From positions 911,056 to 975,055 of the forward strand of contig CATKHK010000001.1 of the NCBI GenBank assembly GCA_949751835.1: DNA of 64,000 nt, given 5' to 3'. A program made the position numbers and the translations under genes. Position 1 is the first letter of the stretch; every line of letters begins with the position of its first letter. This document shows positions 1 to 21,276 of this stretch, piece after piece. The notes under the pieces were generated by a model, which was given only the letters and a program-made list of their open reading frames with translations, had not been told where the DNA came from and ran no database searches. The stretch comes from Blepharisma japonicum (lineage: Eukaryota; Ciliophora; Heterotrichea; Heterotrichida; Blepharismidae).

Positions 1-522
1 GGGAATTGCACTTCTGGAGATATATCAGCGCTATATAAAGATTTCTTTCAGAATGGGTATTCAGACGATACATGCTTGCAGTATGTAGCAGACAATTCAA
101 GCACATTTGATTGCTATAATTGTGTACCGCCTGCACCTCAGGAAGGTAATAACTCATACTGCAGCCCTATTGCACCTCCGTTCTTATTTAAAATCAGTAG
201 CTACAAAAATCTTGCTGGGGTGACAAAAATGATGCAAGAAATTTATACAAATGGACCAATCACATGTGGAATCTACGCAAGTAAAGGGTTTGCTAACTAT
301 ACTGGAGGAATTTATAGTGAAATTTCAAAAATTTCTACAATCAGCCAATATGTCTCTCTTGTAGGCTGGGGAGTAGACCCATCAACAAAAACTCAATACT
401 GGATTGGGAGAAACTCCTGGGGAACAGGCTGGGGCGAGTATGGATTTTTTAGGATGCAAATGTTTAGAGATAACCTTGGTATTGAGACTGATTGCATGTC
501 AGCAGTTCCAATTTTTGGATAA
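1..522 (+). CDS. CZ1: C-terminal part of a double-domain cathepsin Z-like pseudoprotease (5' end outside window)
   Basis: The frame is open from the first base and ends at TAA 520-522, giving 173 residues that match the C-terminal half of a second cathepsin-Z-like domain in the neighbouring copies. Visible landmarks are S-D-D-T-C, the C-x-x-C-V-P-P-A-P segment, N-G-P-I-T-C-G-I-Y, and G-R-N-S-W-G, which holds the Asn of the papain-family triad. At the position of the catalytic His (cathepsin Z I-N-H-V-V) the sequence reads I-S-Q-Y-V, so His is replaced by Gln and the domain should be inactive. The nucleophile position lies outside the window. No UGA codon occurs in this part. Its 3' flank leads into CZ2 after about 750 bases. 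The family call is firm; catalytic death rests on the missing His. Confidence 0.85.
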   Translation, partial: GNCTSGDISALYKDFFQNGYSDDTCLQYVADNSSTFDCYNCVPPAPQEGNNSYCSPIAPPFLFKISSYKNLAGVTKMMQEIYTNGPITCGIYASKGFANYTGGIYSEISKISTISQYVSLVGWGVDPSTKTQYWIGRNSWGTGWGEYGFFRMQMFRDNLGIETDCMSAVPIFG

Positions 523-1260
523 ATTAATTAATTTATTCAAACTATAAGAATATTTAATTTATTTTAGTAAGGTTTCTAATGCTCAATCTAAATTAACTAA
601 TTAAATAAAAAAGATAAAGGATTAAAAAAATTCTTAGAATTAATGCCAAAATTAAAAAAGTGCATGCCTATTTATTTCAACCCTAAAGACTCATGGAATT
701 AGCTATTTAGAATTGAAATTCCTATAATTGAAAATATTTACCTAATATTGTCAAATTAGAAAATTAATGTCACTAAATATGGTTAAATTGATAATGAATT
801 GTTTTAAATAGAAAAATTACAATTTTTAAGAGATGAAACTTTATAATTTAATTCTGGAAAGCCAATATTGTATAAATTAAATAAACATATCAAAATAGGT
901 GTGCCAAAAAATAATTTTATGCTATTCTGAAGGAATGTCTAGCAAATAGGCTCGACCAAATGAGATGGAGCCAATTTTAAATTAAATCATTTATATCCCA
1001 TGCTATGGGCTCGAATTTATCGGACAATATTCCTAGCTCTAAGAGCAGCTTCTGGGAATTTCACCCTCCCCAGCCGTGACTGTGCAATGACTCAAGGATG
1101 ATCAAGAAGAATAAAAATTTCAGCTCAAAAAGTTTGCTTAAAATTAAAAAGTAAAATAACGTTTACAGTAATCTATCCTTTTAAACTGTAATTTTATTTT
1201 TATTCATTTCATAATACAAAACTTTATAATAGCTTTAAATCCTTATTTTTTTAGAGGTGA
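523..1260. other. Spacer CZ1-CZ2, no gene recognised
   Basis: AT-rich spacer with stops in all frames even when UGA is read as Trp. A slightly GC-richer stretch at about 945-1110 contains a small inverted repeat (CCCAT-GCT-ATGGG near 997) but no recognisable tRNA or other RNA. The last 120 bases resemble the spacer before CZ5. Confidence 0.5.
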
Positions 1261-1277
1261 CCATTTTTGGGGAAATA
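1261..1277 (+). promoter_or_regulatory. Conserved CZ leader before CZ2 ATG
   Basis: The sequence CCATTTTTGGGGAAATA abuts ATG 1278. The same 16-17 bases precede CZ3-CZ7 and survive in the decayed start near 3455. Conservation is stronger here than in the signal peptide that follows, so it may be a core promoter or 5'UTR element. Confidence 0.6.
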
Positions 1278-2960
1278 ATGTTTAAAGCTCAGCTAGCCAT
1301 TTTAACACTTGTTACCTTCTTGGTCTTTGCAAATGAAAGTAATTCTGATTTGATTTCATCCTTAGGCTTACCCACAAATTTGTTCTGGGGTAAAGTAAAT
1401 GGGACGAGCTATCTTACGGTAACAAGAAACCTAAAAAATCTCGAATATTGCTCAGCCTCTTGGGCTATGGCTGCCACAACTGTCCTTTCTGATCGCTTTA
1501 AGGTCCTTAGAAATGCTTCATGGCCTGACTATAATATTTCTCCACAAGTCGCGCTTAGTTGTATTCAAAACGTCCAAGGCTGCTCTGAAGAGGGAGACCC
1601 AGCGTTAGTTTACAATTATATAGCTAATAATGGAATTACTGATGAAACTTGTGCAATTTACCAGGCCCGCGATTTTTCAAATGGAGCCCCTTGTGATAGA
1701 TATGCTGTATGTAAAACTTGTTACCCTAATGGAAAATGTGACATTCCTAGTAGATATTATTTATATCAAATCACTGGATATACAGTAGCCAAAGGCCAAG
1801 CTCAAATGCTACAAGGTTTACAAAGTGGGCCAATTGTATGCAGACTAAATAGTACAAATCAGTTTGTACAATACAGTTCTAGTGATGATATACTTATCCC
1901 TACACAGTCACCAAGTAATGGTACCATTTATGTTTCTATTGTAGGATATGGAGTAGATTCTAAAGGTAACAATTATTGGATCGGCAGAAACTCTTGGGGG
2001 ATTGGTTGGGGAGATGCAGGTTTCTTTAATTTAATAAGAGGAACTGATGCTTTAGGGATTGAAGAATATTGTGTTTACCCTACCCCAAGCTTAGATGTTA
2101 TTGTTGTTAACACTAATAGTGAAGGAAAAGTAGAAAGATCTACTGTCAATAATTTCAGCTTACACGTAAATGAAGAAGGATCAGCCAGTTCTTTTAGAGT
2201 AAAGCCAGCAGCTGATGGGACTCTTTCCGCTGTTCCTTCCTCCTGGAGTTGGGCAAATGTGAAAGGTAAAAATTATTTATCATGGATCAGAAACCAAAAT
2301 ATCCCACAGTACATGGATGCTTCTTGGGCTTTTGCCGCAGCGTCTTCTGTAACTGACCGCTTTAATATTCTGTTTTTCAACGACACTTTTCCTCAATTCG
2401 TTATATCTCCACAAGATATGATTAATAATGCTCTAGGAAATTTCGATAATTCAGATATACCATCACTTTATCAATATTTCCTTCAATTTGGGTTTTCAGA
2501 TGACACATGTCTGCAGTATGTAGCAGATGATTGAAATATTTTTGATTGCAGAAATTGTGTACCTCCAGCACCTGCTGATGTAAGTGACAATTCATACTGC
2601 AGTGTTGTTGAAATCCCTATATCATTTAAAATTAGCAGCTACACAAACCTCGCTGGTGCGACCAAGATGAAACAAGAAATTTATACAAATGGGCCAATCA
2701 CATGTGGAATATACGCAAGTGCAAAGTTTGCGAATTACACTTCAGGAATTTATAGTGAAATTTCGAAAACTTCTACAATAAGCCAATATGTATCAGTTGT
2801 AGGCTGGGGAGTAGACCCAACAACGAAAAATCAATATTGGATTGGGAGGAATTCTTTGGGAACAGGCTGGGGTGACTTTGGATTCTTTTTTATGCAGATG
2901 TTTAGGGACAATCTTGGAATTGAAACTGACTGCATAGCTGCTGTCCCAACTTTTAAATAA
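1278..2960 (+). CDS. CZ2: secreted double-domain cathepsin Z-like pseudoprotease
   Basis: 560 residues reading UGA 2532-2534 as Trp; stop TAA 2958-2960. I chose ATG 1278, not the GTG 21 bases upstream, because the conserved leader ends there and a typical signal peptide (MFKAQLAILTLVTFLVFA) follows. Two tandem C1A domains (about 31-275 and 315-560) are joined by an acidic linker. Domain 1 reads E-Y-C-S-A-S-W-A against cathepsin Z Q-Y-C-G-S-C-W-A, so the nucleophile is Ser61, and the His position is Ile (T-I-Y-V-S). Domain 2 reads Y-M-D-A-S-W-A, also Ser, with Gln for His. Structural cysteines and many N-glycosylation sequons remain. Expected to be secreted or lysosomal and non-proteolytic; the actual role is unknown. 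Closest in sequence to CZ5. Confidence 0.88.
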
Positions 2961-3289
2961 ATTAGCTTACTGACTCTCAAATAATAAAAATTTAGATAAA
3001 AAATATTTTGTTCTTTGTTTGGTTGGCAAAATCAAAAAATAATTATTTCTTAAGCAGATTAAAAATTCTTTATATTAGAATATATATTTGAATAGATAAA
3101 TTAACTGTTGGCTATTTTAATAACATTTTTATTTTCGACAAGCAAAACCTTATTAGGCTTCATTTTCATAATAAAATTCAACAAAAACTACTAAAACTAT
3201 TTTATAAAGTAAAATAAAATTTCTACAACAGGCTTATCATTCTTAATAATATTGTTAAACAAATATGCAATAATAGTCAGCCATTTAGA
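2961..3289. other. Spacer after CZ2
   Basis: AT-rich sequence without a readable frame. The segment around 3155-3200 resembles the spacer downstream of CZ3 near 6580-6610 (shared CATTTTCATAATAAAA), so it is probably duplicated flank. Confidence 0.45.
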
Positions 3290-3575
3290 ATATTTAATCT
3301 AGCCATATAAAATTATAAGATAGCTCAGTGATACCTTGAAATTGAAATTCAATTAAAAAAGAATGCAAATGTCAAAAAAATCCCATCTCCACAATAATGA
3401 TTTTTTATCCCTAACTAATCGGATCTAAAAACTGCATAAGAATTTATTTTTATTATTCATTTTGGGGAATAATATTTAACATTAAATTAGTTTTTGCAGC
3501 ACTTTCTATTCTCATTGTTTTAGTATATAGGAATTGCTCTGACTTCAAGATATAAGCTCGGAGTTATCAGAGATG
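3290..3575 (+). pseudogene. Decayed CZ gene start (leader plus signal peptide region)
   Basis: This stretch aligns with the upstream region and first codons of CZ4 (7225-7480). It contains the leader as CATTTTGGGGAATAATAT at about 3460-3477, where the ATG has become ATA, then a recognisable but broken signal-peptide region (about 3478-3545) and the start of the mature part. Homology stops near 3575. It is the remnant of a lost family member between CZ2 and CZ3. Confidence 0.7.
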
Positions 3576-4640
3576 GAAGTTTAGGCTTAACGAAGCTGTG
3601 TAGAATATCCACTCGCAGAAGTAAAGGCCAGTGGGGTTAGATATATTTTTTAATTCGATAATATATGTTCCATCGATGCATATTAAAATCCCTAACAGCT
3701 GCATAACAGCATCACCAATAGATTAGAAACGAGAATGGAACTTCAAGAAGGTATGCAAATGGGCATTGAAAGACTGCATGACACATCGAATGCAGTTGAA
3801 AATGAAAATTTGCACACATTTATTATCTGCTTCTCATGAGACTAAATGCGAGACATCTTCCAGTCAGCTCATCAAACTTGTAGAGTTTGGTTATTTCTAG
3901 CGTAGATCTACTCCAAGATAAATAATAGTGATCCGAGTAGATCATTTAACTATTATTATCTATAAAAGAAAAATAAATTTGGAAAAAGACTTTTAAATAA
4001 TGAAAAAAATAGACAATTCTAATAATAAAAACAAATAGTAGCATTATATTTTGCTCTAATAAGATTATAATTAGCTTATTGCTGCTCTTTAATTTAATAC
4101 ATTTATAAGAGAATAATATTTATTTACGGTTAAATTGCTACTCTATCTTCTCATTTTTTAAGCATAAATATTTATTAAGTCGATCTGGTCACGCTTAGCT
4201 AGATTTGAGACTCTTGCAATCTATTTTCAAGCATCTGCCTATTTATAACAAAAATAATAATAAAAATATTTTTAATATTCATTTAGTCTGCCAATACTGA
4301 GTTGTAATAAAAAAATTCTTTGAATATTTTCTTAATCAATGTTTTGAAATAATTTATATCTTAAAAATATATATACAAGATTATAATTAAAATCAGTAGA
4401 AAAATTAAAAGCAAATATAAATTTAAAGCTCAGTAGAGAATAGCTCATCTGAGGAAAATTTATGATTAAAATAGAGCAAAAAATTAATAAAGATATTTAG
4501 CTCAAGAAATAATATCCAAATTGTCAAGCGCTGCTGCAAAATAAATCATATAACCAGCAAGCACCTTTAATAGATTGAATCATCTTTATATCAATCTTAA
4601 TTAAGCTAATAATTCCTTATTATTAGATTTTTTTGTCGAC
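3576..4640. other. Spacer before CZ3 with a GC-richer unexplained patch and duplicated flank
   Basis: About 3576-3960 is less AT-rich than its surroundings and has no long frame; no RNA family is recognised. About 4086-4250 resembles 12770-12925 and 13444-13560 and includes a degenerate copy of the CZ leader. About 4420-4620 is similar to the sequence upstream of CZ6 (13915-14110), as expected if CZ3 and CZ6 were duplicated with their upstream DNA. Confidence 0.5.
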
Positions 4641-4657
4641 TCCATTTTGGTGAAATA
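4641..4657 (+). promoter_or_regulatory. Conserved CZ leader before CZ3 ATG
   Basis: TCCATTTTGGTGAAATA abuts ATG 4658. The GGTG variant is shared only with CZ6, matching the CZ3/CZ6 subfamily. Confidence 0.6.
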
Positions 4658-6325
4658 ATGATTATCAAAAATCCAGCTTTTTTAATCCTTGCAGTCAATT
4701 TAGCTTTCTCATTTGCAATTTCCTCTAATTTGGCTTCTTCATCTTTAAGTATACCAACAAGCTTGTACTGGGGTAATGTAAATGGCACTAGCTATCTTAC
4801 GGTATCGAGAAATCAAAAAAGTCTTCAATATTGCACAGGTTCTTGGGCTATTGCTGCCACAACAGTCCTTTCTGATCGTTTTAAGGTCCTTAGAAATGCT
4901 TCATGGCCTGATTATAATATTGCTCCACAAGTTGCCCTTAGTTGTATTTCACAAGTACAAGGCTGTCATGAAGAAGGAGATCCAGCGTTAGTCTATGACT
5001 ATATTTCCAAAAATGGGATTACTGATGAAACTTGTGCAGTTTATCAAGGGCTTGATTTTTCAAATGGAAATCCTTGTGGTCCATATTCCATATGCTTGAC
5101 TTGTCTATCTCAAACCAGTTGTTTTACTCCTAGCAGGTATTATCTTTACAATATTACAGGATACTCAGTTGCCAAAGGGGAGGATCAAATGCTAAGCGCT
5201 TTACAAAGTGGTCCTATTGTTTGCAGGCTGAATAACACGATTGAGTTTGAAGCATACAGCTCTAAAGATAATATACTTGTTCCTGGCAAATTTCCAAGTA
5301 ATGGAACTATTTATGTTTCTATTGTCGGATATGGAGTCGATTCTGCTGGCACTAATTATTGGATCGGCAGAAACTCTTGGGGAACAACATGGGGCGACCT
5401 TGGATTCTTTAACCTGATAAGAGGAACTGACGCTTTAGGGATTGAGGAATATTGCGTGTACCCTACTCCTAACTTAACAGTCACTGTTGTTACTACTAAA
5501 AGTCAAGGAATAGAAGAAAGAACCTTTATTGATAACTTTGAGCTTCCTAAACTTGAAAATGAGCCTAGCTCTTTTAGAATCAAGCCAGAAGCTGATGAAG
5601 CTCTTGCTGCTGTTCCTTCAGCTTGGGACTGGAGAAATGCAAATGGCACAAATTATTTATCATGGGTCAGGAACCAAAATCTTCCTCAATATACTACCTG
5701 GTCTTGAATACTCGCTACAGCATCTTCTATTTCTGATAGAGTCAATATTATGTTTTACAACGCCACCTTTACTCCATTTACTATGTCTATTCAAGATTTG
5801 CTTGATGAAACTGATGGGATGCAGGAAGATCTTTACTCATCTTTACAATATGGTATTTCAGATGATACATGCCGTCAGTATGTAGGAGGCGAATTCGTTC
5901 CATATCCATGCTTAACCTGTGTACCGCCAGCACCTCAGTATGGCTCGGAGTCAAACTGCAAAAGTGTTACTCCTCCTTTTTTATATAGAATCAGCAGTTA
6001 TAAAAATCTTGCTGGAGCAACCAAGATGATGCAAGAAATTTATACAAATGGACCTATTACATGTGGGATCTACTCAAGTATAAAATTCCTTACATACAGT
6101 GGAGGAATTTATAGTGAAATTTCAGCAATTTCTAAAATCAGTCAATATGTATCAGTTGTAGGCTGGGGGGTAGACCCATCAACGAAAACTCAATACTGGA
6201 TAGGTAGGAATTCTTGGGGAACATTTTGGGGGGAGTATGGATTTTTCAGGATTCAAATGTTTAGAGATAACCTCGGTATTGAAACTGATTGCGTGTCAGC
6301 AGTCCCAACTTTTAAAAAAAAATAA
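4658..6325 (+). CDS. CZ3: secreted double-domain cathepsin Z-like pseudoprotease (CZ3/CZ6 subfamily)
   Basis: 555 residues, with UGA 5705-5707 read as Trp and stop TAA 6323-6325. A signal peptide (MIIKNPAFLILAVNLAFSFA) follows the conserved leader. Domain 1 has Q-Y-C-T-G-S-W-A, so Ser62 replaces the nucleophilic Cys, and Ile at the His position. Domain 2 is further diverged: Q-Y-T-T-W-S-W lacks even the structural Cys of the Q-Y-C motif, and its middle section is a rewritten stretch (M-S-I-Q-D-L-L-D-E-T-D-G-M-Q) shared only with CZ6. The triad Asn remains in R-N-S-W-G of both domains. The C-terminus carries three extra Lys. The frame is intact, so the gene may be expressed, but no peptidase activity is expected. 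Confidence 0.87.
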
Positions 6326-7385
6326 ATAAAAATTCATAATAGGGAAATTTATTTAAAAAGAAAAATTAGGCATATAATTTTCAAATCCTTAAATACGTAA
6401 ATATGAGGTTAAAGCCAGAGCCTTCTAAGGAAATCAGTAATATTAAAACAATTCATTTATTATGATAGATTTTAAATTTTTATATATTAGACTAAATACC
6501 TATGGACAAGTTATCTGCACTATATTAATTGCATTTGTATTTAAACATAGATATACATTACCAGAGCTATCATAAGCTTTTAAGCACATTTTCATAATAA
6601 AAATTTATCAAGTAACTACTGAAACATAAAAAAAAAAAAAAAAATTGAAAATAAGATTTGTGACAGTTTAGAATTTGTGACAGTTTAGAATTATATAAAA
6701 AAGAAGAGTCTTTAAAATATCAACAAGCCAAAGAAGATCTATCTAAATCTATAATTAATTGCTAGTCTGCAAAAAGAAGCAATGAAAGAAGCTGAAGAGG
6801 CACTTAAAAGTTTAGAAAGAAAATGCTTCTATTTATTAGAACGTTTGCCAAATATATTAGAACATTTGACTGGGAAGTTCAAAGAATTTGATTCAAAGTT
6901 AGAGCAATTTGATGGTTCAAAGAATTATGCCAATCAAGAGGCAATTATCGAGAAAGCGAAAAAAAAAGAGCATGTGAAAGTCTTGAGCCAACCATAGACG
7001 CATTTCTTCAAATATAGAATCTGGCTCATCATATATGTCAGTGAAGGTAAACAACAAAAAATATAAGGCTTTTTGAATTGGACTAAAAAGTTCTATAAAT
7101 AGATCCGCTTCCTTAATAGCCAAATAAACTTAAGTAAATATTAAATTATTATTAATTATTATCTGTCGTAAAAGAATCTTCTTGCTTATAATATTTATAA
7201 ACAAAGATTAGATAAATAGAAATCAAGCCATTAAAATTATAAAATTGCTCAATGATACATTGAAATTGTCTGAAGTTTAAAATAAAAATAAATCATATGA
7301 TCAAAGTACATTCCTAGCTATTAATAAATTTATTATCTTAAATTAATAAGATCTAAGAAGGTTTAAGAATTTATTTTTATTATTC
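6326..7385. other. Spacer CZ3-CZ4 with poly-A run, 18-bp tandem repeat and coiled-coil-like short frame
   Basis: A run of about 18 A lies near 6629-6646, followed by two copies of an 18-bp unit (GTGACAGTTTAGAATT core) at about 6659-6694. A 71-codon frame at 6782-6997, rich in Glu, Lys and Leu, looks coiled-coil-like. TAA lies just upstream of it and a second in-frame tract follows its stop, so I read it as a decayed fragment, not a gene. About 7225-7385 matches the flank of the decayed start at 3290-3460. Confidence 0.5.
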
Positions 7386-7402
7386 ACCATTTTGGGGAAA
7401 TA
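7386..7402 (+). promoter_or_regulatory. Conserved CZ leader before CZ4 ATG
   Basis: ACCATTTTGGGGAAATA abuts ATG 7403. It is kept intact although the gene behind it is frame-broken, suggesting recent decay. Confidence 0.55.
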
Positions 7403-9094
7403 ATGCTTAGCATTAAGTCAACTTTAACAGCACTCGCTATTCTCATCACTTTTGCTTATGAAAATGATCACTCTGATTTAACTTCTGCATCTTTAGGCTT
7501 ACCTACAAATTTGTTCTGGGGTAAATTAAATGGGACTAGTTATCTAACAGTAACAAAGAGCCTAAAAAATCTTGAATGATGCTCAGGCACTTGGGCCATG
7601 GCTGCAACAAGTGTCCTTTCAGACCGTTTCAAAGTCCTTAGGAATGCTTCATGGCCTGACTACAATATTGCTCCACAAGTTGCACTTACCTGCATTACAA
7701 AGGTTAAAGGCTGCTTTGAAGAAGGAGATCCAGCATGGGTTTATGATTATATCATCGAAAAAGGAATTACTGACGAAACATGTGCAGTTTATAGGGGTCT
7801 TGATTTTTCAAATGGAGGTACTTGCAATCGATATACCAGATCACAACTTGCATCGCTAGTGGAAATTGTGATGTTTCTAGCAGATATTATGTTTACAATA
7901 TTACTGGATATACAAAAGTCACAGGTCAAGCTCAAATGCTAACCCGCTTTACAAGGTGGACCAATTGTATGTAGGCTTAATAGCACAGATCAATTTTGAG
8001 ATTACAGCTCTAGTGACGATATACTGGTCCCAGAAGACTCACCAAATAATGGAACAGTTTATGTTTCTATTGTTGGATATGGTGTGAATGCTACAGGGAC
8101 TAATTATTGGATTGGTAGAAATTCTTGGGGAATAGGCTGGGGAGATGTAGGATTCTTTAATCTAATAAGAGGAAATAACGCTTTAGGGATTGAGGAATAT
8201 TGTGTTTATCCTACTCCTAACTTAACGATTACATTAGTTACTAATAACAGCCAAGGAGAAGAAGAAAAATCTTATATTAGTGATTTTAATCTCCCCAAGC
8301 TTGAAGAAGAGACAAAGCATCATTTGAGAGCTAAGCCTTCAGCTGATGAAAATCTTGCTGCTGTTCCTTCAGCATGGGATTGGAGAAATGCAAATGGTAA
8401 AAATTACTTATCATGGGTCAGAAACCAAAATCTTCCTGAATACTGCGCCGCCTCTTGGGCGTTTGCTCCTGCATCTTCTGTCACTGACCGTTTGAATATT
8501 ATGTTTTTTAACAATACTTTTCCTCAATTCATTATATCTCCGCAAGATATGATTAATTGAAATATAGGAAGCTGTGGTTACGAAGTTTTTGATACAACTC
8601 TATTCTATAAAACATTCTTAACATATGGGTTTTCAGATGAAACATGCCTTATGTACATAGCAACCAATTCATATGCTTTCACATGTGTGGAATGCTGACC
8701 TCCTGCGCCTCAGCTTGGTGAATTTGCTGACTGCAGAGCTATTTTACCTCCTATTACGTTTAGAATCAGCAGCTATAAAAATCTTGCTGGAGCTACCAAG
8801 ATGATGCAAGAAATTTATACGAATGGGCCTATTACTTGTGGGATTTATAATAGCACAAATTTTGCGAGGTATGCTGGAGGAATTTATAGTGAAATTACAG
8901 GGACTTCTCAACTCAGCCTGTATGTATCAGTTGTAGGTTGGGGAGTAGATCCATCAACAAAAACTCAATATTGAATAGGAAGGAATTCTTTGGGCACAGG
9001 CTGGGGTGAGTATGGATTTTTCAGGATGCAAATGTTTAGAGATAACCTTGGTATTGAAACTGATTGCGTTGCCGCAGTACCATCTTTTAAATAA
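7403..9094 (+). pseudogene. CZ4: frame-broken double-domain cathepsin Z-like copy
   Basis: Homology runs full length from ATG 7403 to TAA 9092-9094. A one-base deletion near 7841 (expected T-G-C reads T-C) and a one-base insertion near 7943 put about 35 codons out of frame; the original frame then meets TAA at 7940-7942. The two shifts compensate, so the rest of the protein stays in phase. UGA codons at 7577, 7997, 8558, 8696 and 8972 read as Trp; the one at 8972 is the invariant Trp of Y-W-I-G-R-N. Domain 1 has C-S-G-T-W-A, so Thr, not Ser, sits at the nucleophile position; domain 2 has Ser. Both His positions are lost and domain 2 reads N-S-L for N-S-W. Sequencing error at both sites is possible but less likely than decay. 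Confidence 0.8.
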
Positions 9095-9387: not shown

Positions 9388-9907
9388 ATATAAGAAGCTG
9401 TGGTTATGAAGTTTTTGATGCATCTCTACTTTACCAATATTCTTAAAATATGGGTTTTTAGATGAAACATGTCTTATGTACATAGCAACCAATTTATCTT
9501 CTTTAATATGCATGGAATGCTGGCCTCCAGTTCCTCCAGATAGAGGAATATCTGCTGTAGAACTATTTTACCTCCTATTTTATTTAAAATCACAACTATA
9601 AAAACTTTGCTGGAGCTATCAAGATGATGCAAGAAATTTATACGAATGGGCCTATTACTTGTGGGATTTATAATAGCACAAATTTTGCGAGATATAATGG
9701 AGTGAAATTACAGAGACTTCTACACTCAACCTGTTTGTCTCTGCTGCAGGTTGGTAGTAGATCTGTCAACAAAAACTCAATATTGGATAAGAAGGAATTC
9801 TTTGGGCTCAGGCTTGGGTCGAGTATGGAGTTTTTAGAATACAAATTTTTAGAGATTATCTTGGTATTGAAACTGATTGCGTTGCCGCAGCACCAGCTTT
9901 TAAATAA
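9388..9907 (+). pseudogene. Solitary 3' fragment of a CZ gene, duplicate of the CZ4 end
   Basis: This segment aligns with CZ4 from about 8566 to its stop: the same S-C-G-Y-E-V-F-D opening, then the T-C-L-M-Y-I-A-T segment, N-G-P-I-T-C-G-I-Y and an ending that matches CZ4's last codons. Several small deletions break the frame, and the conserved G-G-I-Y-S-E and G-W-G-V-D blocks are damaged. No domain 1 and no leader are present. It arose by a partial tandem duplication of the CZ4 3' end and then decayed. Confidence 0.8.
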
Positions 9908-10699
9908 ATTATTTTATTCAATTTTTATAATTTTCTTAAAAGGGGTCTGATTATCTTAATTGAGTTATGAAATAATCGCTAATTTTTACAATAATTAGTC
10001 TGAATAATTGGCAAATAAAATAAATTGTTAGAATTAATTCAAGCATTATTTCTGAAAATTTCTTTGCTAATAAATAATAATCTTGCCCTATTTAGTTACA
10101 AATTTGACTAAATGCTATAGAATAATATGGCAAAATTAAAGAAATGACATCACCAAAATGGCTTATTGACCTAAAATTGTAGTAAAGAGAGATTCATAAA
10201 TTTAGAATCATAATTTATGGCAAGCATTGGAGAAGACTCTAAGGCTTAGGCTAAGTGTAGCATTCCACTTGTAAAATTTATGTGTAGAATTCAAATAAAT
10301 TTATATACAACTTTCGAAGAGTTTGGCGATCCTTAAAAAGTCTAGGCTCAACAAGATAAAAATTTTCCTTAAATAAATAAGAAAATATTATAAATGAAAT
10401 TTCTTACATTTACTATTAGATCCTGTCTAAATATTAGTTTTATTCAATTTATTTTATCATGAATATTTGAGTGCCATCATCTTCCTGGCTGAAATAATTA
10501 TCTCTAAAAAGAGATATTCAAAATTAGTATATTATTATAGGAAAATGCATCTCAAAAATAAAAATCTTAAAGTTTTCTATAATTTAAAATAGGGCAAATA
10601 ATTAGAGCTATTTATTGATTTAAAACTGCATGTTATCTTTGCTTAGTTTATAAAATAAGTATTATAATAATAGGATAAATCCTTATTTTTAACTAGTGG
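9908..10699. other. Spacer before CZ5
   Basis: AT-rich, no frame. A GC-richer stretch near 10215-10275 weakly resembles 3580-3630. The last 100 bases resemble the flank upstream of CZ2. Confidence 0.45.
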
Positions 10700-10716
10700 C
10701 CATATTTGGGGAAATA
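10700..10716 (+). promoter_or_regulatory. Conserved CZ leader before CZ5 ATG
   Basis: CCATATTTGGGGAAATA abuts ATG 10717. One T-to-A change relative to the CZ2 copy. Confidence 0.6.
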
Positions 10717-12399
10717 ATGTTTAGAACTCAGCTAAGCATTTTAATACTTTTTGCCTTGGTAGCTTTTACACAAAAAAGCTATTCAGATTTTATTTCTTCT
10801 TCCTTAAGCTTACCTACAAATTTGTTCTGGGGCAAAGTAAATGGAACGAGCTATCTTACGGTAACAAGAAATATTAAAAATCTTGAATTTTGTTCAAGTT
10901 CTTGGGCCATGGCTGCCACAACTGTCCTTTCTGACCGTTTTAAAGTCCTTAGAAATGCTTCATGGCCCGACTATAATATTTCTCCACAAGTCGCACTTAG
11001 TTGTATTTCAAATGTAAAAGGCTGTTTTGAAGAGGGAGATCCAGCATCCGTCTATGACTATATTTTAAAGAATGGAATTACTGATGAAACTTGTGCAATT
11101 TACCAAGCTCGAGATTTTTCAAATGGAGTTCCTTGCGACCGATATGCCAGATGCAAAATTTGTTTACCTAATGGAAAATGTGACATACCTAGCAAATATT
11201 ATGTTTACAATATCACTGGATATGCAGTAGTTATAGGTCAAACACAAATGCTAAATGCTTTACAAAGTGGGCCTATTGTATGTAGGCTAAATAGTACGGA
11301 TCAGTTTGTGAATTATAACTCTAGTGATGGTATATTTATTCCTCATTTATCAACAAATAATGGCACAATTTATGTATCAATTGTTGGATATGGAGTCGAT
11401 TCGAAAGGAACTAATTACTGGATTGGCAGAAACTCTTGGGGGATTGGGTGGGGAGATGCTGGGTTTTTTAATATTATAAGAGGAATCAATGCCTTAGGGA
11501 TTGAGGAATATTGTGTCTACCCTACTCCTAACTTAACTATAACTGTTGCTACTACTAGCAGTAAAGGAGAAGTAGAAAAATCCTTTATCGACAATTTTTA
11601 TCTCCCCAAAATTGAAGAAGAGCCAACCAGTTCGTTTAGAATTAAGCCCGTAGTCGATGAAACTCTTTCTGCTGTTCCTTCTGCATGGGATTGGAGAAAT
11701 GCAAATGGTAAAAATTATTTATCATGGGTCAGAAACCAAAATATTCCTCAATACTGTGAAGCTTCTTGGGCCTTTGCTCCTACATCTTCTGTCACTGACC
11801 GTTTCAATATTATGTTCTTCAACGACACTTTTCCTCAATTCATTATATCGCCTCAAGATCTAATTAATACCGGTTTAGGAAATTGCGATAGTGGAGATAT
11901 GTCACAGGTTTATCAATATTTCTTTAAAATTGGATTTTCAGATGATACTTGTCTACAGTATGAAGCAGCGAATCACGATCCTTGAAATTGTATGAATTGC
12001 TTACCACCAGCACCTGATATAAATGGCAATTCATTATGCTATCTTAGTAATGCTCCTATATTTTTTAAAATAGCCAGCTATAAAAATCTTGCTGGGGCGA
12101 CCAAGATGATGCAAGAAATTTATACAAATGGGCCAATCACATGTGGAATTTATGCAAGTAAAGGGTTTGCTAACTATACTGGAGGAATTTATAGTGAAAT
12201 TTCAAAAATTTCCATAATCAGTCAATACGTCTCAGTTGTAGGCTGGGGAGTGGATCCATCAACGAAAACTCAATACTGGATTGGAAGAAACTCTTGGGGA
12301 ACAGGCTGGGGTGAGTATGGATTTTTTAGAATGCAAATGTTTAGAGATAACCTTGGCATTGAAACTGACTGTACGGCTGCTGTCCCAACTTTTAAATAA
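10717..12399 (+). CDS. CZ5: secreted double-domain cathepsin Z-like pseudoprotease
   Basis: 560 residues with one UGA-Trp (11983-11985) and stop TAA 12397-12399, the same length as CZ2. The start is fixed by the leader and by the signal peptide (MFRTQLSILILFALVAFT); an upstream GTG reading through the leader is rejected. Domain 1: E-F-C-S-S-S-W-A, with Ser62 for the nucleophile and Ile for His. Domain 2: Q-Y-C-E-A-S-W-A, with Ser, and I-S-Q-Y-V, with Gln for His. The Asn and the following S-W-G are intact in both domains. Cysteines expected for cathepsin-Z disulfides are present, so a folded, secreted, non-catalytic protein is the likely product. With CZ6 it forms the second copy of the CZ2-CZ3 block. 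Confidence 0.88.
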
Positions 12400-14127: not shown

Positions 14128-14144
14128 TCCATTTTGGTGAAATA
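14128..14144 (+). promoter_or_regulatory. Conserved CZ leader before CZ6 ATG
   Basis: TCCATTTTGGTGAAATA abuts ATG 14145 and is identical to the CZ3 copy, including the GGTG variant. Confidence 0.55.
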
Positions 14145-15801
14145 ATGTTTAGCAAGAAGCTTACCTTTTTAATCCTTGCTGCCCATATAGCTCTCACATA
14201 TGCTAGCCACTCAAGTTTGACTTCTCCTTCTTTAAGCATACCTACAAACTTGTTCTGGGGTAATTTAAATGGCACTAACTATCTTACGGTATCAAGAAAC
14301 CAAAATAGTCTCGAATATTGCTCAGGTTCTTGGGCTATTGCTGCCACAACTGTTCTTTCTGACCGCTTTAAGGTCCTTAGAAATGCTTCATGGCCTGACT
14401 ATAATATTGCTCCACAAGTCGCACTTAGTTGTATTACACAAGTCGAAGGCTGCCATGAAGAAGGAGATCCAGCTTATGTCTATGACTATAAATTTACAGA
14501 ATGGAATTACTGATGAAACTTGTGCAATTTACCAAGGTCGTGATTTTTCAAATGGAATCCCTTGTGATAGATATGCCATATGCAAAACTTGTTTATACCC
14601 AACAAGTTGTGATATTCCTAGCAGGTATTATGCTTACAATATCACTGGATACTCAGTTGCCAAAGGGCAGAGTCAAATGTTAAGTGCTTTACAAAGTGGG
14701 CCAATCGTATGCGGACTGGATAACACAACTCAGTTTGCAGAATATCAGGCTAAAGATAATATACTTATTCCAGACGGCTAACCAAGTAATGGCACCGTTT
14801 ATGTTTCTATTGTTGGCTATGGAGTTAATTCTGCAGGTACTAGTTACTGGATCGGCAGAAACTCCTGGGGAACAGCATGGGGTGACTTCGGATTCTTTAA
14901 CTTGATAAGAGGAACTAACGCTTTAGGGATCGAGGAATATTGTGTTTTCCCTACTCCTAATCTTACAATCAAATTAGTTACTAATAACGGCCAAGGAGAA
15001 GAAACCTGTATAAATAGCTTTGAGCTCCCTAAACTTGAAAATGAGCATAATTCTTTTAGAATCAAGCCAACAGCTGATGATGTTCTTACTGCTGTTCCTT
15101 CAGCTTGGGACTGGAGAAATGCAAATGGTACAAACTATTTATCATGGGTCCGAAACCAAAATGTTCCTCAAAATACTCCTTGGTCTTTTATAATTGCTAC
15201 AGCATCTTCTATTACTGATAGATTCAATATTATGTTTTACAACGGCACTTTTAGTCAATTCACTATGTCAATCCAAGATTTACTTGATGAAACTGATGGG
15301 ATGCAAGAAGATCTTTACCCATCTTTACTAGATGGTATTTCAGATGATACATGCCGTCAGTGAATAGGAGGCCAGATTATTCCAAATCAATGCTTGTGGT
15401 GTCTACCACCAGCACCTTATGAAGGCCAAGAATCAGATTGCGAAAGTATTGATCCTCCTTTCTTATTTAAAATAAGCAGCTATAAAAACCTTGCTGGAGC
15501 TACCAAGATGATGCAAGAAATATATGCAAATGGGCCTATTACATGTGGAATCTACTCAAGTACAAAGTTTGCTAACTACACTGGAGGAATTTACAGTGAA
15601 ATTACAGGAACTTCTATAATAAGCCAATATGTGTCAGTTGTAGGCTGGGGTGTTGATCCATCAACAAAAACTCAATACTGGATAGGTAGGAATTCTTTGG
15701 CTACAAGCTGGGGCGAGTATGGATTTTTTAGGATGCAAATGTTTAGAAATAACCTTGGTATTGAAACTGATTGCGTATCTGCAGTACCTACTTTTAAGTA
15801 A
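14145..15801 (+). pseudogene. CZ6: frame-broken double-domain cathepsin Z-like copy (CZ3/CZ6 subfamily)
   Basis: Homology is full length, from a signal peptide (MFSKKLTFLILAAHIALTYA) to TAA 15799-15801. A one-base insertion near 14490, just after V-Y-D-Y, shifts the frame. In the continuing frame TAA 14779-14781 interrupts domain 1, where CZ3 has sense codons. UGA 15361-15363 is a normal Trp. Domain 1 has E-Y-C-S-G-S-W-A (Ser); domain 2 has the rewritten Q-N-T-P-W-S-F, with neither the structural Cys nor the motif Trp. The rest of domain 2 stays open to the end, with 153 and 135 codon tracts, so decay is recent. A 22-nt GT...AG removal would restore frame but would delete the conserved V-Y-D-Y and is not a heterotrich intron length. 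Confidence 0.82.
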
Positions 15802-16042
15802 AATATCGATTTACTCAATTATTTAAAAAGGAATTTATTATATGTTTCTTTATTAGAAGTTAAATCTAAAACTTCATTTATAAAATAGGCATTAAAAATA
15901 TATCCATAGTATAAAATTAAGGTAAAAAATTTTAAATAATTTAATAAATAAATCACTGGCTTGAAAACCGAAAAAAAGATTATGATCTTATGCTATCAAC
16001 AAGAAAATTAATAAGCTTAAATATCCATTTTTTAATTCAACA

Positions 16043-16059
16043 CCATTTCTGGGGAAATA
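16043..16059 (+). promoter_or_regulatory. Conserved CZ leader before CZ7 ATG
   Basis: ACCATTTCTGGGGAAATA ends at ATG 16060. It is preceded by TTAATTCAAC, which also precedes the degenerate copy at 13444. Confidence 0.6.
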
Positions 16060-17772
16060 ATGTTTAGCTCAAAGCTAATCTTTGCAACTCTTGCTATCAT
16101 TATTGTTTTCACGTCTGGGAGGTATGCTGGTCCCAGCAATCGCTCTTCCCCAGAACTAAGTGCTCCTACAAGCCTTTTTTGGGGTAAAAATAATGGCATC
16201 AGCTATCTTACTGTAACAAGAAACCACAACATTCCTCAATATTGTACAAGCTCTTGGGCTGTAGCTGCAACAACTGTCCTTTCTGATCGTTTCAAGGTCC
16301 TCAGAAATTCTTCATGGCCTGACTATAACATTTCTCCTCAAGTAGCATTAAGTTGTATTTCAGGAGTTCAAGGATGCACTACAGAAGGTGACCCAGTTTC
16401 AGTCTATGAGTACATTTACCAAAATGGAATCACCGACGAAACCTGTGCAAGCTACCAAGCCCGCGACTTTTCAAATGGAATTGCATGTGACAGATTAGCT
16501 GTATGCAAGAATTGTTTACCTAATGGAAAATGCGACATTCCTAACAGATATTTCGTTTACAATATCACTACTTTCGCAGTAGCCAAAGGACCAACTCAGA
16601 TGGTTAATGCTTTACAAAGCGGCCCTATTGTCTGCCAAATTGGTGTAACATCTCAATTCCAAAGCTACCAAAGTGGAATTCTTACGCCAACTTCAGGCGC
16701 TGCAGTTCTTTTTACTGCTTACGTTTCAATTGTAGGCTATGGGGTCAGTTCTACTGGGACTAATTATTGGATTGGGAGAAACTCTTGGGGAACTGCATGG
16801 GGAGATGCAGGTTTCTTTAACTTGGTCAGTGGATCTAACGCTTTAGGGATTGAAAACTATTGTGTTTATCCAACTCCTAATAAAACAGTTACTGTAGTTA
16901 CTACTAACAATCAAGGAAAAGAAGAAAGATCTTATGTCGATATTGCAGAACTCCATAAGCTTGAAGAAGAGCCAGAAGAACCAATTCAGGGTTATCTTCG
17001 AGCCAAGCCAGTGGCTGAAGAAGCTCTTAGTGCTGTTCCTACAACTTGGGACTGGGGAAACGTCAAAGGTAAAAACTACCTATCCTGGGTCAGAAATCAA
17101 AATATCCCACAATTCTGTAATGCTTCATGGGCCTTTGCTTCTACATCTTCACTCACTGACCGTTTCAACATTTTGATTTTCAACGACACTTTCCCTCAAT
17201 TCACTATTTCTCCGCAAGTTCTCCTTAATTGTGGAGTCGGAAATTGCACTGGTGGAGACCCAACAGCAGTTTACAATTGGGCTCGTATGAATGGAATCCC
17301 AGATGATACCTGTCAACAATACGTAGGTGACTTTTTTGAAACATGTAATGCAACACAAGTTTGCCAAACTTGTGTATCTCCAGCACCAGCCAATGACACT
17401 GTAAACTCGGTCTGTAATCAAGTTACTCCTGCTCACTTATTTAAAGTCGGAAATTACGGAAATCTTGCTGGAGTCACCAAGATGAAGCAAGAAATTTACA
17501 ATAACGGGCCAATCACTTGCGGAATTTATGCAAGCAAAGCTTTTGCAGGTTACACTGGAGGGATTTTTAGTGAATATTCAAGAAGCACTACAATCAGCAA
17601 CTTCGTCTCTGTTGTCGGCTGGGGAATTGAAAAGAACTCAAATAATGAGTACTGGATTGGAAGGAATTCTTGGGGAACCAGCTGGGGTGAGTACGGGTAC
17701 TTCAAGATGCAGATGTATAGAGATAACCTTGGGATTGAAACTGACTGCACTTGGGCAACTCCAAGCTTTTAA
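16060..17772 (+). CDS. CZ7: secreted double-domain cathepsin Z-like pseudoprotease, well preserved
   Basis: 570 residues, uninterrupted, stop TAA 17770-17772. Signal peptide MFSSKLIFATLAIIIVFTSG. Domain 1 (about 35-275) reads N-I-P-Q-Y-C-T-S-S-W-A: Ser65 replaces Cys and the mini-loop His is Asn. The His position is Ala220; Asn241 is kept. Domain 2 (about 325-570) reads N-I-P-Q-F-C-N-A-S-W-A with Ser356; Asn514 stands for His and Asn536 is kept. It retains more of the mini-loop (N-I-P) than CZ2-CZ6 and has the intact G-N-C-x-G-G-D block in domain 2. No UGA is used for Trp and third positions are visibly richer in C/G than in CZ2-CZ6. Both features are shared with CZ8 and suggest stronger selection or higher expression. 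Confidence 0.9.
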   Translation: MFSSKLIFATLAIIIVFTSGRYAGPSNRSSPELSAPTSLFWGKNNGISYLTVTRNHNIPQYCTSSWAVAATTVLSDRFKVLRNSSWPDYNISPQVALSCISGVQGCTTEGDPVSVYEYIYQNGITDETCASYQARDFSNGIACDRLAVCKNCLPNGKCDIPNRYFVYNITTFAVAKGPTQMVNALQSGPIVCQIGVTSQFQSYQSGILTPTSGAAVLFTAYVSIVGYGVSSTGTNYWIGRNSWGTAWGDAGFFNLVSGSNALGIENYCVYPTPNKTVTVVTTNNQGKEERSYVDIAELHKLEEEPEEPIQGYLRAKPVAEEALSAVPTTWDWGNVKGKNYLSWVRNQNIPQFCNASWAFASTSSLTDRFNILIFNDTFPQFTISPQVLLNCGVGNCTGGDPTAVYNWARMNGIPDDTCQQYVGDFFETCNATQVCQTCVSPAPANDTVNSVCNQVTPAHLFKVGNYGNLAGVTKMKQEIYNNGPITCGIYASKAFAGYTGGIFSEYSRSTTISNFVSVVGWGIEKNSNNEYWIGRNSWGTSWGEYGYFKMQMYRDNLGIETDCTWATPSF

Positions 17773-17960
17773 GCAATAAGTTAATTCATTAAACATCGCC
17801 ACAATATTTTATAAATTTATAATAAATTTAACTGTAAATATTTTATATGAAAGAAAGAAAAAATATCATGAAGTCTTTACTTAATTATATTATATTGATA
17901 AGTAATAATATACATATATCAAACTAGGTATATCAAGATCTGAAAAAAAATTGATTTAAC
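17773..17960. other. Spacer after CZ7
   Basis: AT-rich; nothing recognised before the LRR fragment. Confidence 0.4.
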
Positions 17961-18062
17961 TTTTTCCGACACTTAAAAGAGCTTGAAGCCTAATTCATTT
18001 AATATTTACGCCAATTATCAACTTAGAGCACTTAAGCTGCTTAAGGAATTAAATTTTATATT
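17961..18062 (+). pseudogene. Decayed LRR gene fragment
   Basis: About 100 bases align with 18515-18620 of the LRR gene immediately downstream: shared TTAAAAGAGCT, then TTCATTTAATATT and CAATTATCA. An in-frame TAA and small indels break it. No homology was seen beyond this block, although 18140-18260 also has Leu-rich-looking short segments. Confidence 0.65.
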
Positions 18063-18351
18063 ATATTAAAATAATCACAGCACATTAAATTAAACTTAAA
18101 TATTCCACGAATTCTATATTTCTTTTCTATTTAGTTGAAAAATAAATATAGTACCCTTGTCAGTCAGAGAGAGCTTGGGATGAGTGACATTTTAAGGGAT
18201 ATGCACTTGACAAAGCTAAAAAAAGGGATTCTTAAGATCTTGACCTTGATTAGGTTAAGTTGCTAAATATATTAAGTTAATTCATTAAAAAATTATATAT
18301 GAATTTGTTATGAAGCTTTTAATTATATAAAAATATAAATTATAATAAAAC

Positions 18352-19206
18352 ATGAAAATAGAGGAAGAAGGAGAAGAAGACGAAAATAATGATAAAGAGC
18401 AGAACTATCACGGATGCTTTACTTCATTATCATATATTGATAAAGCAAGAAACCCAGACATAACGAAACTAGACTTATCAAGAGACACAGATCTGAAAAA
18501 CCTTTTCTTTTTAAGATTTTTCCCAAATTTAAAAGAGCTAGATTTATCAAATTCCTTTAATATTCGTGACAATTATCAGTTTGTAAAGCATCTAGAGCAG
18601 CTTGAAAAATTGAATTTATTTTCTATTGGACTAACCACAGCAGTCTATCTAACTCCACTTAAGAATCTTAAGCAGCTTTCGATTTCTTGTCCGATTATAG
18701 GTGAAGCAGTAGAATATCTTACCCAATTGCCAGTTCTTAAGGATCTTGAAATTTGTGGATGCACTAAAGGGATATGAAAGATCAGCCGTTTAACATCATT
18801 AAAAAGGCTTGGTCTAAGAGGCATATTTTCTGATGTTTGTGATTCTTGTAATGAAAGTATGAATGAAGAATTTCCGCAATTAGAATTTCTGGCTTCTCTA
18901 ACGAATTTGAGAGAACTAGATATTTCCTGCAACGAATATATAAATTTTATTCAGCCAATTGTAAATTTACCAAAATTAAAGCGCTTAAGCTTGTCTGGGG
19001 ATTTGGGGATTCAGGATTTATATCACCTTAAAGAGCTGAATTCTTTAGAAATATTGGATCTGAGGTATCTTAACTCTATATTTATTAGAACATTTGAAGA
19101 AGATATAAAGGTCTTGGCAGAGCATCCCAATCTTCAAGAGCTGTGAATTGACAATTATGTAGCTCTTCCTGAGCTACCGGATCGAGTAAAGATAATGAGA
19201 CGATAA
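18352..19206 (+). CDS. Leucine-rich repeat protein
   Basis: 284 residues when UGA at 18775-18777 and 19144-19146 is read as Trp; stop TAA 19204-19206. After an acidic N-terminus (about 20 residues rich in Glu and Asp) come repeated L-x-x-L-x-L units of roughly 23-25 residues, for example L-K-E-L-D-L-S, L-E-K-L-N-L, L-K-Q-L-S-I, L-K-D-L-E-I, L-R-E-L-D-I-S-C-N and L-E-I-L-D-L. No signal peptide or membrane segment is seen, so it is probably cytosolic and a protein-binding scaffold. Its partners are unknown. It interrupts the CZ array between CZ7 and CZ8, with a decayed piece of the same gene 300 bases upstream. Confidence 0.85.
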
Positions 19207-19497
19207 TATCATAAATGCTGTTAATTTGATACTTATATATATCTTGAAGATTGCTCTAAGAATAAAAAAAGCTAATAAAATGTTCTATCCAAATTTTTAA
19301 TTTCTGAAAAAATTAATAATTTAAGCAAAGGATTTATTATTGCTTTTAAGTCCTAAGAAATATGCTTAAAAGCTCATTTTTTACTTTATAAAGGTACAAC
19401 ATTTTTTAAATCATAAATGTTAATTTAAAGTAATTCCCTATGCGTAATTAAGCACATTCCTCCGTTATTTGCTCACATTTTATACATGGAGAATAAT

Positions 19498-21261
19498 ATG
19501 TCGAGGTTTTTGCTTCAACATTTACTGATAGTTCTTTTTATTTCTTCTGCTTCTGGCTGCTTTATTAAGAACAATGATATTGTACCTCCGCATTCAGCTC
19601 CAGAAACTCTTGTTGACCCTTCAAATCTTCCTTCTTATTTATTTTGGGGAAATTACAGTGGCATCAACTACCTCACAGTTTCAAGAAACCAGCATATCCC
19701 TCAATACTGTGGTGGCTGCTGGTCCTTTGCGTCAACTTCTGCCCTTGCTGACCGTTTTAAGATCCTTCGCAATGCGACTTGGCCAGACTACAATATTGCC
19801 CCACAAGTTCCAATCAGCTGTGATTATCTAAGTTTCGGCTGCAATGGAGGAGATCCTATGACTGTTTATAAGTACATATATGATCATGGGATCACTGATG
19901 AAACCTGTGCAACTTATCAAGCTAAAGATAGAGATAATGGGCTTGAATGTACAAGGTTATCAAGATGTAAAACTTGTTACAGTAATGGAAAATGCGACAT
20001 CCCTGACACCCACCTCGTCTACAACGTAACCACCTATGGCTCAGCAATTGGCGAAACCCAAATGCTTAATGCCTTACAAAATGGTCCAATTGCCTGCTCA
20101 ATGGACGCTACAAACCAATTTGAAAACTATACTGGAGGGATCTTCATCCCTACAAGCTTAGACGTCGCCACTAATCATGTAGTAGAACTTGTAGGCTATG
20201 GGGTAGAAAATAATACCAAATATTGGATTGGGAGAAATTCCTGGGGCACTTATTGGGGAGAAAAAGGACTTTTCAGGATTATCAGAGGAAGAGATGCCCT
20301 GGCTATTGAAGAATACTGCGCCTGGGCAACTCCAGACCCAGTTGTCAAGCAGGTAAATAAGACTTTGGTAGAAGAAAAATCCGTTACTGAGCTCAAGATA
20401 TTAGAAGTTTTTGAAAGACCTGAAAAAGCAGGCTGCAGGATAGAAAAATCAGAATTAAAGCTGCAGGCAGAAGCAAATGGGTATAAACTTGAAGAAGATG
20501 CAGCTGCAACAGTTCCAACAGCTTGGGACTGGAGAAATGTGTCTGGGCTGAACTATATGTCTTGGACAAGGAATATGAATAACCCACAGTTTTGTGGAGC
20601 TTGCTGGGCACACGCAGCAACATCTTGCATTGCAGATAGAATCAATATTCTAAGAAATGACACTGTTGCCCAGATTTCTATATCTCCACAGGTAATTCTC
20701 AATTGTAATGCAGGCGGCAACTGTACAAGTGGAGACCCAATTGGAGTTTATAAATTCGCTCAACAATATGGTCTTCCAGACGATACTTGCCAACAATATC
20801 TTGCAGAACCAGTCGAAAATGCAACTTGCTCAGCACGACAAGTTTGTGAAACCTGCATCCCACCACCTCCTAAAGAAGGTCAAATTTCTAATTGTTCAGC
20901 TATAACAAATCCTCCTCTTTGGTATGTCGGCTCTTATGGATTTTTAGCTGGAGTTACTAAAATGAAGCAAGAAATTTATACGAATGGGCCAATTAGCTGC
21001 GGAATTTACTACTCCAAGTCTTTCGAAAACTACAAAGGCGGCATTTTCAGCGAGCTCACAATGACCACTAAGGTCAATTATGAAGTTGCCTTAGTAGGCT
21101 GGGGAGTCGATAAAACAGGCACCCAATACTGGATAGGCAGAAACGCACAAGGCACAATGTGGGGCGAAAGTGGATTCTTCAGAATCCAAATGTATAGAGA
21201 CAATCTCGGTATTGAAACAGACTGCAGCTGGGCGATCCCAAATATAACCAGAACTAACTAA
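19498..21261 (+). CDS. CZ8: double-domain cathepsin Z-like peptidase, domain 1 predicted active, domain 2 predicted dead
   Basis: 587 residues from ATG 19498; ATG 19486 is in frame, but the AATAATATG context mirrors the AAATAATG start of the family. Signal peptide about 1-20. Domain 1 has the full cathepsin-Z signature R-N-Q-H-I-P-Q-Y-C-G-G-C-W: nucleophile Cys74, mini-loop His66 (in human cathepsin Z the HIP loop confers carboxypeptidase specificity), catalytic His227 in T-N-H-V-V, and Asn247 in R-N-S-W-G. Domain 2 keeps Cys369 in C-G-A-C-W-A-H-A, but Tyr528 replaces His, the mini-loop is N-N-P, and N-S-W is N-A-Q. So one competent carboxypeptidase-like unit is fused to a dead one. Trp is always UGG. 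The stop is only 15 bases before the next ATG. Confidence 0.9.
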   Translation: MSRFLLQHLLIVLFISSASGCFIKNNDIVPPHSAPETLVDPSNLPSYLFWGNYSGINYLTVSRNQHIPQYCGGCWSFASTSALADRFKILRNATWPDYNIAPQVPISCDYLSFGCNGGDPMTVYKYIYDHGITDETCATYQAKDRDNGLECTRLSRCKTCYSNGKCDIPDTHLVYNVTTYGSAIGETQMLNALQNGPIACSMDATNQFENYTGGIFIPTSLDVATNHVVELVGYGVENNTKYWIGRNSWGTYWGEKGLFRIIRGRDALAIEEYCAWATPDPVVKQVNKTLVEEKSVTELKILEVFERPEKAGCRIEKSELKLQAEANGYKLEEDAAATVPTAWDWRNVSGLNYMSWTRNMNNPQFCGACWAHAATSCIADRINILRNDTVAQISISPQVILNCNAGGNCTSGDPIGVYKFAQQYGLPDDTCQQYLAEPVENATCSARQVCETCIPPPPKEGQISNCSAITNPPLWYVGSYGFLAGVTKMKQEIYTNGPISCGIYYSKSFENYKGGIFSELTMTTKVNYEVALVGWGVDKTGTQYWIGRNAQGTMWGESGFFRIQMYRDNLGIETDCSWAIPNITRTN

Positions 21262-21276
21262 TTTAGATAAATAAAT

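Follow-up and report, generated by a model that had tools for sequence, protein, structure and literature searches.

The inactive papain-family (C1A) paralogues that appear in the accessible portions of the literature found come from parasites or animals. SERA5 of Plasmodium, whose papain-like domain carries serine at the nucleophile position, plays an indispensable role that is not enzymatic, and changing the serine to cysteine yields an active enzyme (PMC4671257, accessible text). The SMIPP-Cs of the scabies mite are multicopy inactive cysteine-protease paralogues that occur beside active ones and have signal sequences and predicted disulfides (PMC5956821, accessible text), and the inactive papain-like human proteins TINAG and TINAL (TINAGL1) affect cell-matrix interaction (PMC10318531, accessible text). 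Human procathepsin X (1deu) is described, in the part of the source available, as having its proregion linked to the active-site cysteine. Cathepsin Z in ciliates is reported as a phagosome or lysosome gene (PMC12241210) and occupies one table line in another ciliate paper (PMC7602577), a Stentor paper (PMC9371601) makes a single passing mention of papain-family proteases, and PMC10946202 has nothing on cathepsins, in each case within the accessible text. A literature search that left most subscription papers outside its scope gave, in the portions of text available, no report of C1A pseudoproteases in ciliates or of the family described here, a tandem array of two-domain cathepsin X/Z-like genes in Blepharisma japonicum at the start of the last 64,000 bases of the 975-kb contig CATKHK010000001.1 in its 45.2-Mb genome (positions 911,056 to 975,055; hereafter the window). 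Five of the eight array genes (CZ1, CZ2, CZ3, CZ5 and CZ7, termed the intact dead genes) have lost catalytic residues while keeping open frames and ratios of nonsynonymous to synonymous divergence (dN/dS) below 1. We consider it probable, at roughly 0.62, that the array is a secretory-pathway pseudoprotease family working by binding, as partners or decoys.

By analogy, SERA5 and the SMIPP-Cs would be the nearest known systems in principle, from which the array differs by its two-domain cathepsin Z scaffold. SERA5 shares with it the serine at the nucleophile of a papain-like domain; unlike the array copies, it is not a cathepsin Z, and the rest of its site is described as usable, whereas the array copies also lack the histidine. 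The SMIPP-Cs resemble the array as inactive multicopy paralogues beside active ones and differ as homologues of mite group 1 allergens, in a parasite, with five inactive members (PMC5956821, accessible text). Human cathepsin X/Z (1deu; mature form 1ef7) is single-domain, whereas the array genes are two-domain and the dead copies have lost Cys31, His23 and His180; in contrast to the cysteine link of the human proregion, no cysteine precedes domain 1 in the intact dead copies or in three active two-domain relatives (C61a, C61b and C20). SERA5 and the SMIPP-Cs were compared with the array by description, not by sequence. TINAG and TINAL are not known to be encoded by a tandem array of two-domain genes, unlike the proteins considered here.

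The array consists of eight tandem plus-strand genes and one degenerate remnant, with TGA read as Trp (code 4) in all gene models:

CZ1, 3' part, 1..522, plus strand: intact dead two-domain gene, with its start codon at C1:909895, 1.2 kb upstream of the window (whole gene, L019:296-1978).
CZ2, 1278..2960, plus strand: intact dead two-domain gene, Ser/Ile in domain 1 and Ser/Gln in domain 2.
CZ3, 4658..6325, plus strand: intact dead two-domain gene.
CZ4, about 7403..9094, plus strand: dead two-domain gene, its domain 1 interrupted by two frame changes; Thr/Val in domain 1 and Ser/Leu in domain 2.
CZ4b, about 9388..9911, plus strand: degenerate domain 2 remnant, whose alignment with CZ4 shows 85% identity and has gaps at 17 of 539 positions.
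CZ5, 10717..12399, plus strand: intact dead two-domain gene, whose AlphaFold2 model was compared with solved structures.
CZ6, about 14145..15801, plus strand: dead two-domain gene interrupted by a single frame change and a single in-frame TAA.
CZ7, 16060..17772, plus strand: intact dead two-domain gene, Ser/Ala in domain 1 and Ser/Asn in domain 2; first branch of the dead clade.
CZ8, 19498..21261, plus strand: two-domain gene whose domain 1 has the complete triad; in domain 2 Cys and Asn remain, but Tyr stands in place of His and Met in place of Gln22.

The open frames encode 560 (CZ1, CZ2 and CZ5), 555 (CZ3), 570 (CZ7) and 587 (CZ8) amino acids. All eight double genes submitted to Pfam (six from the array, C61a and C20) have two Peptidase_C1 stretches each and a whole-protein Peptidase_C1 score above the curated cut-off, placing them in C1A, and procathepsin X (1deu) is the top solved-structure match of both CZ8 domains (E values of 1.7e-63 and 6.7e-66), placing these in the cathepsin X/Z subfamily. 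The first-pass annotation, which described eight copies of a cathepsin Z-like double-domain gene, was right in this assignment and in the number of two-domain genes, and overlooked the ninth, degenerate piece CZ4b. CZ2, CZ3, CZ5 and CZ7, in which it saw the two-domain layout persist, have open frames; CZ4 and CZ6 turned out to be disrupted.

The residue numbering used here is that of human cathepsin X, anchored on the alignments of the CZ8 domains to 1deu. Every readable nucleophile cysteine and every readable catalytic histidine of CZ1 to CZ7 has been replaced. The nucleophile is Ser in both domains of the intact dead genes, in CZ6 and in domain 2 of CZ4, and Thr in domain 1 of CZ4, in agreement with the earlier reading of serine, once threonine, in seven of eight copies. 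A Pro at the domain 2 nucleophile of CZ6, given by the profile alignment, was overruled by alignment by eye to the closest copy (CZ3 domain 2), which gives Ser. The histidine position holds Ile in domain 1 of CZ1, CZ2, CZ3 and CZ5, Ala in that of CZ7 and Val in those of CZ4 and CZ6; in domain 2 it holds Gln in CZ1, CZ2, CZ3 and CZ5, Asn in CZ7 and Leu in CZ4. The earlier list of replacements (Ile, Ala, Gln, Asn) is therefore accurate for the intact dead copies and lacks the Val and Leu of CZ4 and CZ6. Asn200, correctly said to persist, is retained in both domains of all five intact dead copies, none of which has the full triad of an active C1A peptidase. The one member called half-active, CZ8, indeed carries the only full Cys/His/Asn triad in the array, in domain 1 alone, and its domain 2 shows, besides the changes listed above, Trp202 replaced by Gln. 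That the dead copies are still enzymes, with Ser31 as a nucleophile served by another base (for example in a transferase or slow hydrolase), would suit the presence of Ser, rather than a random residue, at 10 of 10 intact dead nucleophile positions together with the universal Asn200. We regard this as very improbable: histidine is gone from both domains, Gln22 is gone from domain 1 in four of the five copies (CZ3 keeps it; all five have it in domain 2), a shared ancestor accounts for the common serine codon (TCT at nine positions, TCA at one), and SERA5 with its serine gave no detectable protease activity (PMC4671257, accessible text).

The genetic code bears on whether such genes could merely appear dead. 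TGA occurs in frame within otherwise open papain-family frames of the genome, and 44 TGA codons fall within an alignment of 89 C1A domains, where the commonest residue at the column is Trp for 17, Phe for 13 and Cys for 1. Code 4 was chosen because 30 of the 44 lie at columns with Trp or Phe in the relatives, and a reading as Cys was rejected, Cys being commonest at the column for just one. An artefact of sequencing, assembly or genetic code is extremely improbable: the frame breaks of CZ4 and CZ6 could be errors, but identical replacements are seen again in copies whose pairwise synonymous divergence (dS) exceeds 0.5, and the TCT and TCA nucleophile codons are unaffected by the reading of TGA, which stands mostly at Trp or Phe columns and once at Cys.

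Genome protein searches with CZ8 domain 2 and CZ5 domain 1 as queries, with the best candidates scored, found three two-domain paralogues outside the array: C61a and C61b (L010:4452-8236, minus strand) and C20 (L011:3619-5481). Cys, His, Asn and Gln are present in each of these paralogues' six domains, as is the HIP loop, which is also retained in domain 1 of CZ8. No single-domain cathepsin Z was found among the best candidates of these searches; the C88 gene (L018:2738-4336, minus strand) was rejected as one for its long N-terminal extension and absence of a HIP loop, and is presumably cathepsin C-like. CZ1 to CZ7 form a single clade beside the active two-domain type; in the gene tree, the five intact dead genes group together, with CZ7 splitting off first and CZ8 next outside (support of 100 at these nodes). 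Since the active double genes share the two-domain layout and the searches gave no single-domain cathepsin Z, the simplest reading is that this layout arose before activity was lost. The first-pass annotation, which tied it to the dead state, is not supported on this point, given the full triads of C61a, C61b and C20.

Selection was examined over 509 codons of the five intact dead genes and the active genes. Pairwise dN/dS among the dead genes is 0.20-0.33 in all ten pairs, at dS of 0.54-1.06, compared with 0.21 for the active pair C61a/C61b. A branch model assigns the dead crown a dN/dS (omega) of 0.203 and the active branches one of 0.178; a value of 1 in the dead crown is rejected (likelihood-ratio test statistic, LRT, 463), whereas a common value for the two classes is not (p = 0.32). 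The intact dead copies are under strong purifying selection, indistinguishable in these alignments from that on active genes, in support of the first-pass view of a catalytically dead two-domain family kept by selection, for which it had named dN/dS clearly below 1 as the sign to look for. When domain 2 is analysed with CZ4 and CZ6 included, omega is 0.250 on the intact dead branches and 0.248 on the terminal branches of the broken genes (below 1, LRT 40), so that the breaks of CZ4 and CZ6 are either recent or errors. CZ4b, with its frame breaks and gap positions, has the look of released constraint within the array. When neutral evolution of CZ5 was simulated with 400 runs per level, the frame stayed open three times at 0.1 substitutions per site and never at 0.2, 0.3 or 0.5. 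These results bear on the idea that the array consists of relics, inactivated duplicates decaying without present function, for which speak the disruption of CZ4, CZ6 and CZ4b and the omega of 0.25 on the domain 2 branches of the broken genes, since a low omega may outlast function for a while. As an account of the array this is quite improbable, given that five of eight genes are dead yet open at their mutual distances with an omega of 0.20, that neutrality is rejected and that neutral simulation yields stops; for the intact copies, relic status was rejected on the branch model and the simulation. A recent gene conversion in the second half of domain 2, where pairwise dN/dS is tight (0.11-0.23), was also rejected, dS there (0.49-1.15) being as in the other quarters. 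With two-domain cathepsin Z genes that are active, half-active or dead, this one genome offers a stepwise series for an enzyme turning into something else, in which constraint on the dead genes resembles that on the live ones.

A further possible sign of maintenance stands at the gene starts. A 15-base block, TTTGGKGAAATAATG, ends in the start codon at all six starts from CZ2 to CZ7, five exactly and one with one mismatch:

Leader block of CZ2, 1266..1280, plus strand: TTTGGKGAAATAATG, ending in the start codon.
Leader block of CZ3, 4646..4660, plus strand: the same block.
Leader block of CZ4, 7391..7405, plus strand: the same block.
Leader block of CZ5, 10705..10719, plus strand: the same block.
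Leader block of CZ6, 14133..14147, plus strand: the same block.
Leader block of CZ7, 16048..16062, plus strand: the block with one mismatch.

A scan of the window gave a seventh match elsewhere, with two mismatches; the chance expectation is 0.83, and none of 100 shuffles reached seven. The block is present in close form at CZ1 and absent at CZ8, a 20-base form has exact genome-wide matches at CZ2 and CZ5 only, and the array genes align poorly farther upstream. Its conservation suggests that expression of the array copies may have been kept. The array pattern exceeds chance on the strength of omega, the open-frame simulation and this block.

All 10 shared non-catalytic cysteine columns of domain 1 are kept in the intact dead genes. 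In domain 2, both cysteines of one column pair are gone in CZ2 and CZ3, and both of another in CZ1, CZ2, CZ3 and CZ5; the claim that disulfide cysteines persist holds for domain 1 and fails for these pairs, and the claim of persisting signal peptides agrees with N-terminal hydrophobic leaders on the dead two-domain proteins. Domain 2 of the active C61a and C61b also lacks one cysteine column pair (485/504), so paired loss is not confined to dead copies. The cleft has changed as well. His23 of the mini-loop, which has a role in the carboxypeptidase action of cathepsin X/Z, has given way to Lys or Asn in the five intact dead genes, with the loop length kept, in departure from that subfamily. In domain 1, the former Gly-Gly loop reads EEGDP in CZ1, CZ2, CZ3 and CZ5, where one residue has been inserted, and TEGDP in CZ7, giving the first four a common constellation of Ser31, Ile180, Lys23 and EEGDP. 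Invariant columns in the cleft segments of the intact dead genes number 33 of 50 in domain 1 and 28 of 46 in domain 2 (elsewhere 110 of 212 and 83 of 188); in the active genes, here C61a, C61b and C20 only, they number 36 of 49 and 45 of 50 (elsewhere 73 of 213 and 109 of 193). A changed ligand is favoured over the old substrate for the dead copies because the excess of cleft conservation has shrunk yet is present and because the Gly-Gly loop is new.

The analysis establishes an active two-domain cathepsin Z type in this genome (C61a, C61b and C20) and, beside it, the clade of CZ1 to CZ7, from both domains of which Cys and His are gone. Purifying selection has held the intact copies to two papain-type domains as they diverged, while the carboxypeptidase-type loop and the Gly-Gly loop were altered (in CZ1, CZ2, CZ3 and CZ5, domain 1 has Lys23 and EEGDP). 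The dead proteins would enter the secretory route and bind rather than cut, most likely as non-enzymatic partners or decoys where the active paralogues act, in the food vacuole, the lysosome or outside the cell. Putative ligands are peptides, propeptides or protease inhibitors, with domain 1 perhaps offering the steadier binding surface and domain 2 one that varies more. The same proteins might instead be extrusome or cyst cargo, bulk structural granule content needing a disulfide-bonded fold and no specific ligand: even cysteine counts and paired cysteine loss fit an oxidising granule, tandem copies fit high dosage, and a mucocyst-processing cathepsin is cited for Tetrahymena (PMC12811490, accessible text). 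This appears unlikely in view of the specific domain 1 constellation kept in four copies and of cleft segments at least as invariant as the remainder. Several points weigh against the preferred reading of a binding pseudoprotease family. The cleft conservation excess is smaller in the dead than in the active genes, and the first half of domain 2 is the loosest quarter (pairwise dN/dS of 0.20-0.64). Low omega alone does not prove present function of a copy, domain 2 of the broken CZ4 and CZ6 being equally low, and the omega values of the stem (0.113) and the CZ8 branch (0.104) are near saturation and unreliable. One cysteine pair in domain 2 of CZ7 has no clean match, the AlphaFold2 model of CZ5 is of moderate confidence (mean predicted local distance difference test score, pLDDT, 65.6; predicted template modelling score, pTM, 0.64), signal peptides were judged by eye, not by a predictor, and the secretory location, the proposed ligands and binding as the function are inferred.

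Loss of the catalytic cysteine extends beyond the array, a pattern absent from the first-pass annotation. From 111 profile hits, 101 remained after removal of overlaps and 89 had at least 180 residues; these full C1A domains, a lower bound for the genome, comprise 15 in the array (CZ6 domain 1, split by its frame break, being outside this count) and 74 elsewhere. The catalytic Cys is absent from 48 of the 89: 13 of the 15 array domains and 35 of the 74 others, of which the remaining 39 have Cys-His-Asn. At the Cys position the 35 have Ser (13), Gly (11), Asp (4), Pro (3), Ala (2), Phe (1) and Tyr (1), and 24 keep both His and Asn; the array is set apart from most of them by its additional loss of His. 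On a midpoint-rooted tree, in which CZ4 domain 1 was read straight through in one frame and hence has a long branch, there are 17 losses of Cys if irreversible, 15 changes by Fitch parsimony and 13 with weak nodes collapsed, the array's two domains accounting for two events in the first of these counts and two in the last. Outside the array, dN/dS is 0.09-0.54 for 12 Cys-less pairs (nine at 0.09-0.26, three C16 pairs at 0.34-0.54) and 0.12-0.41 for 10 live pairs, many dS values in these comparisons being near or above 1. The recurrence of Cys loss across the C1A tree of this genome allows it to be examined as a broader trend. It is conceivable, at somewhat less than even odds, that about half of the papain-family domains (48 of 89, from at least 13 losses, in several branches that include the array and the C16 cluster) are conserved non-enzymes, forming a secreted recognition or regulatory layer as large as the active set within one free-living cell, with the array, which lacks His as well as Cys, its most derived part. 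Loci of Cys-less domains include C16:344000-360000 (L014-L016), C18:396914 (L036), C18:420600-435750 (L012, L013), L035, L038-L042, L045-L049 and others.

A length scan of GTA..TAG for short introns gave no excess over a plain shuffle. The window ends with its contig, and its last 200 bases (63801-64000), inspected by eye, contain no repeat array such as a telomere. No relative was found in the viral contigs searched, and 38 were found in the prokaryote contigs searched. A leucine-rich-repeat open frame lies between CZ7 and CZ8 (18349-19206; Pfam LRR_4, E = 3.1e-15), and an RRM-type RNA-binding open frame (21271-21933; Pfam RRM_1, E = 4.1e-21) starts 10 bases past the end of CZ8.

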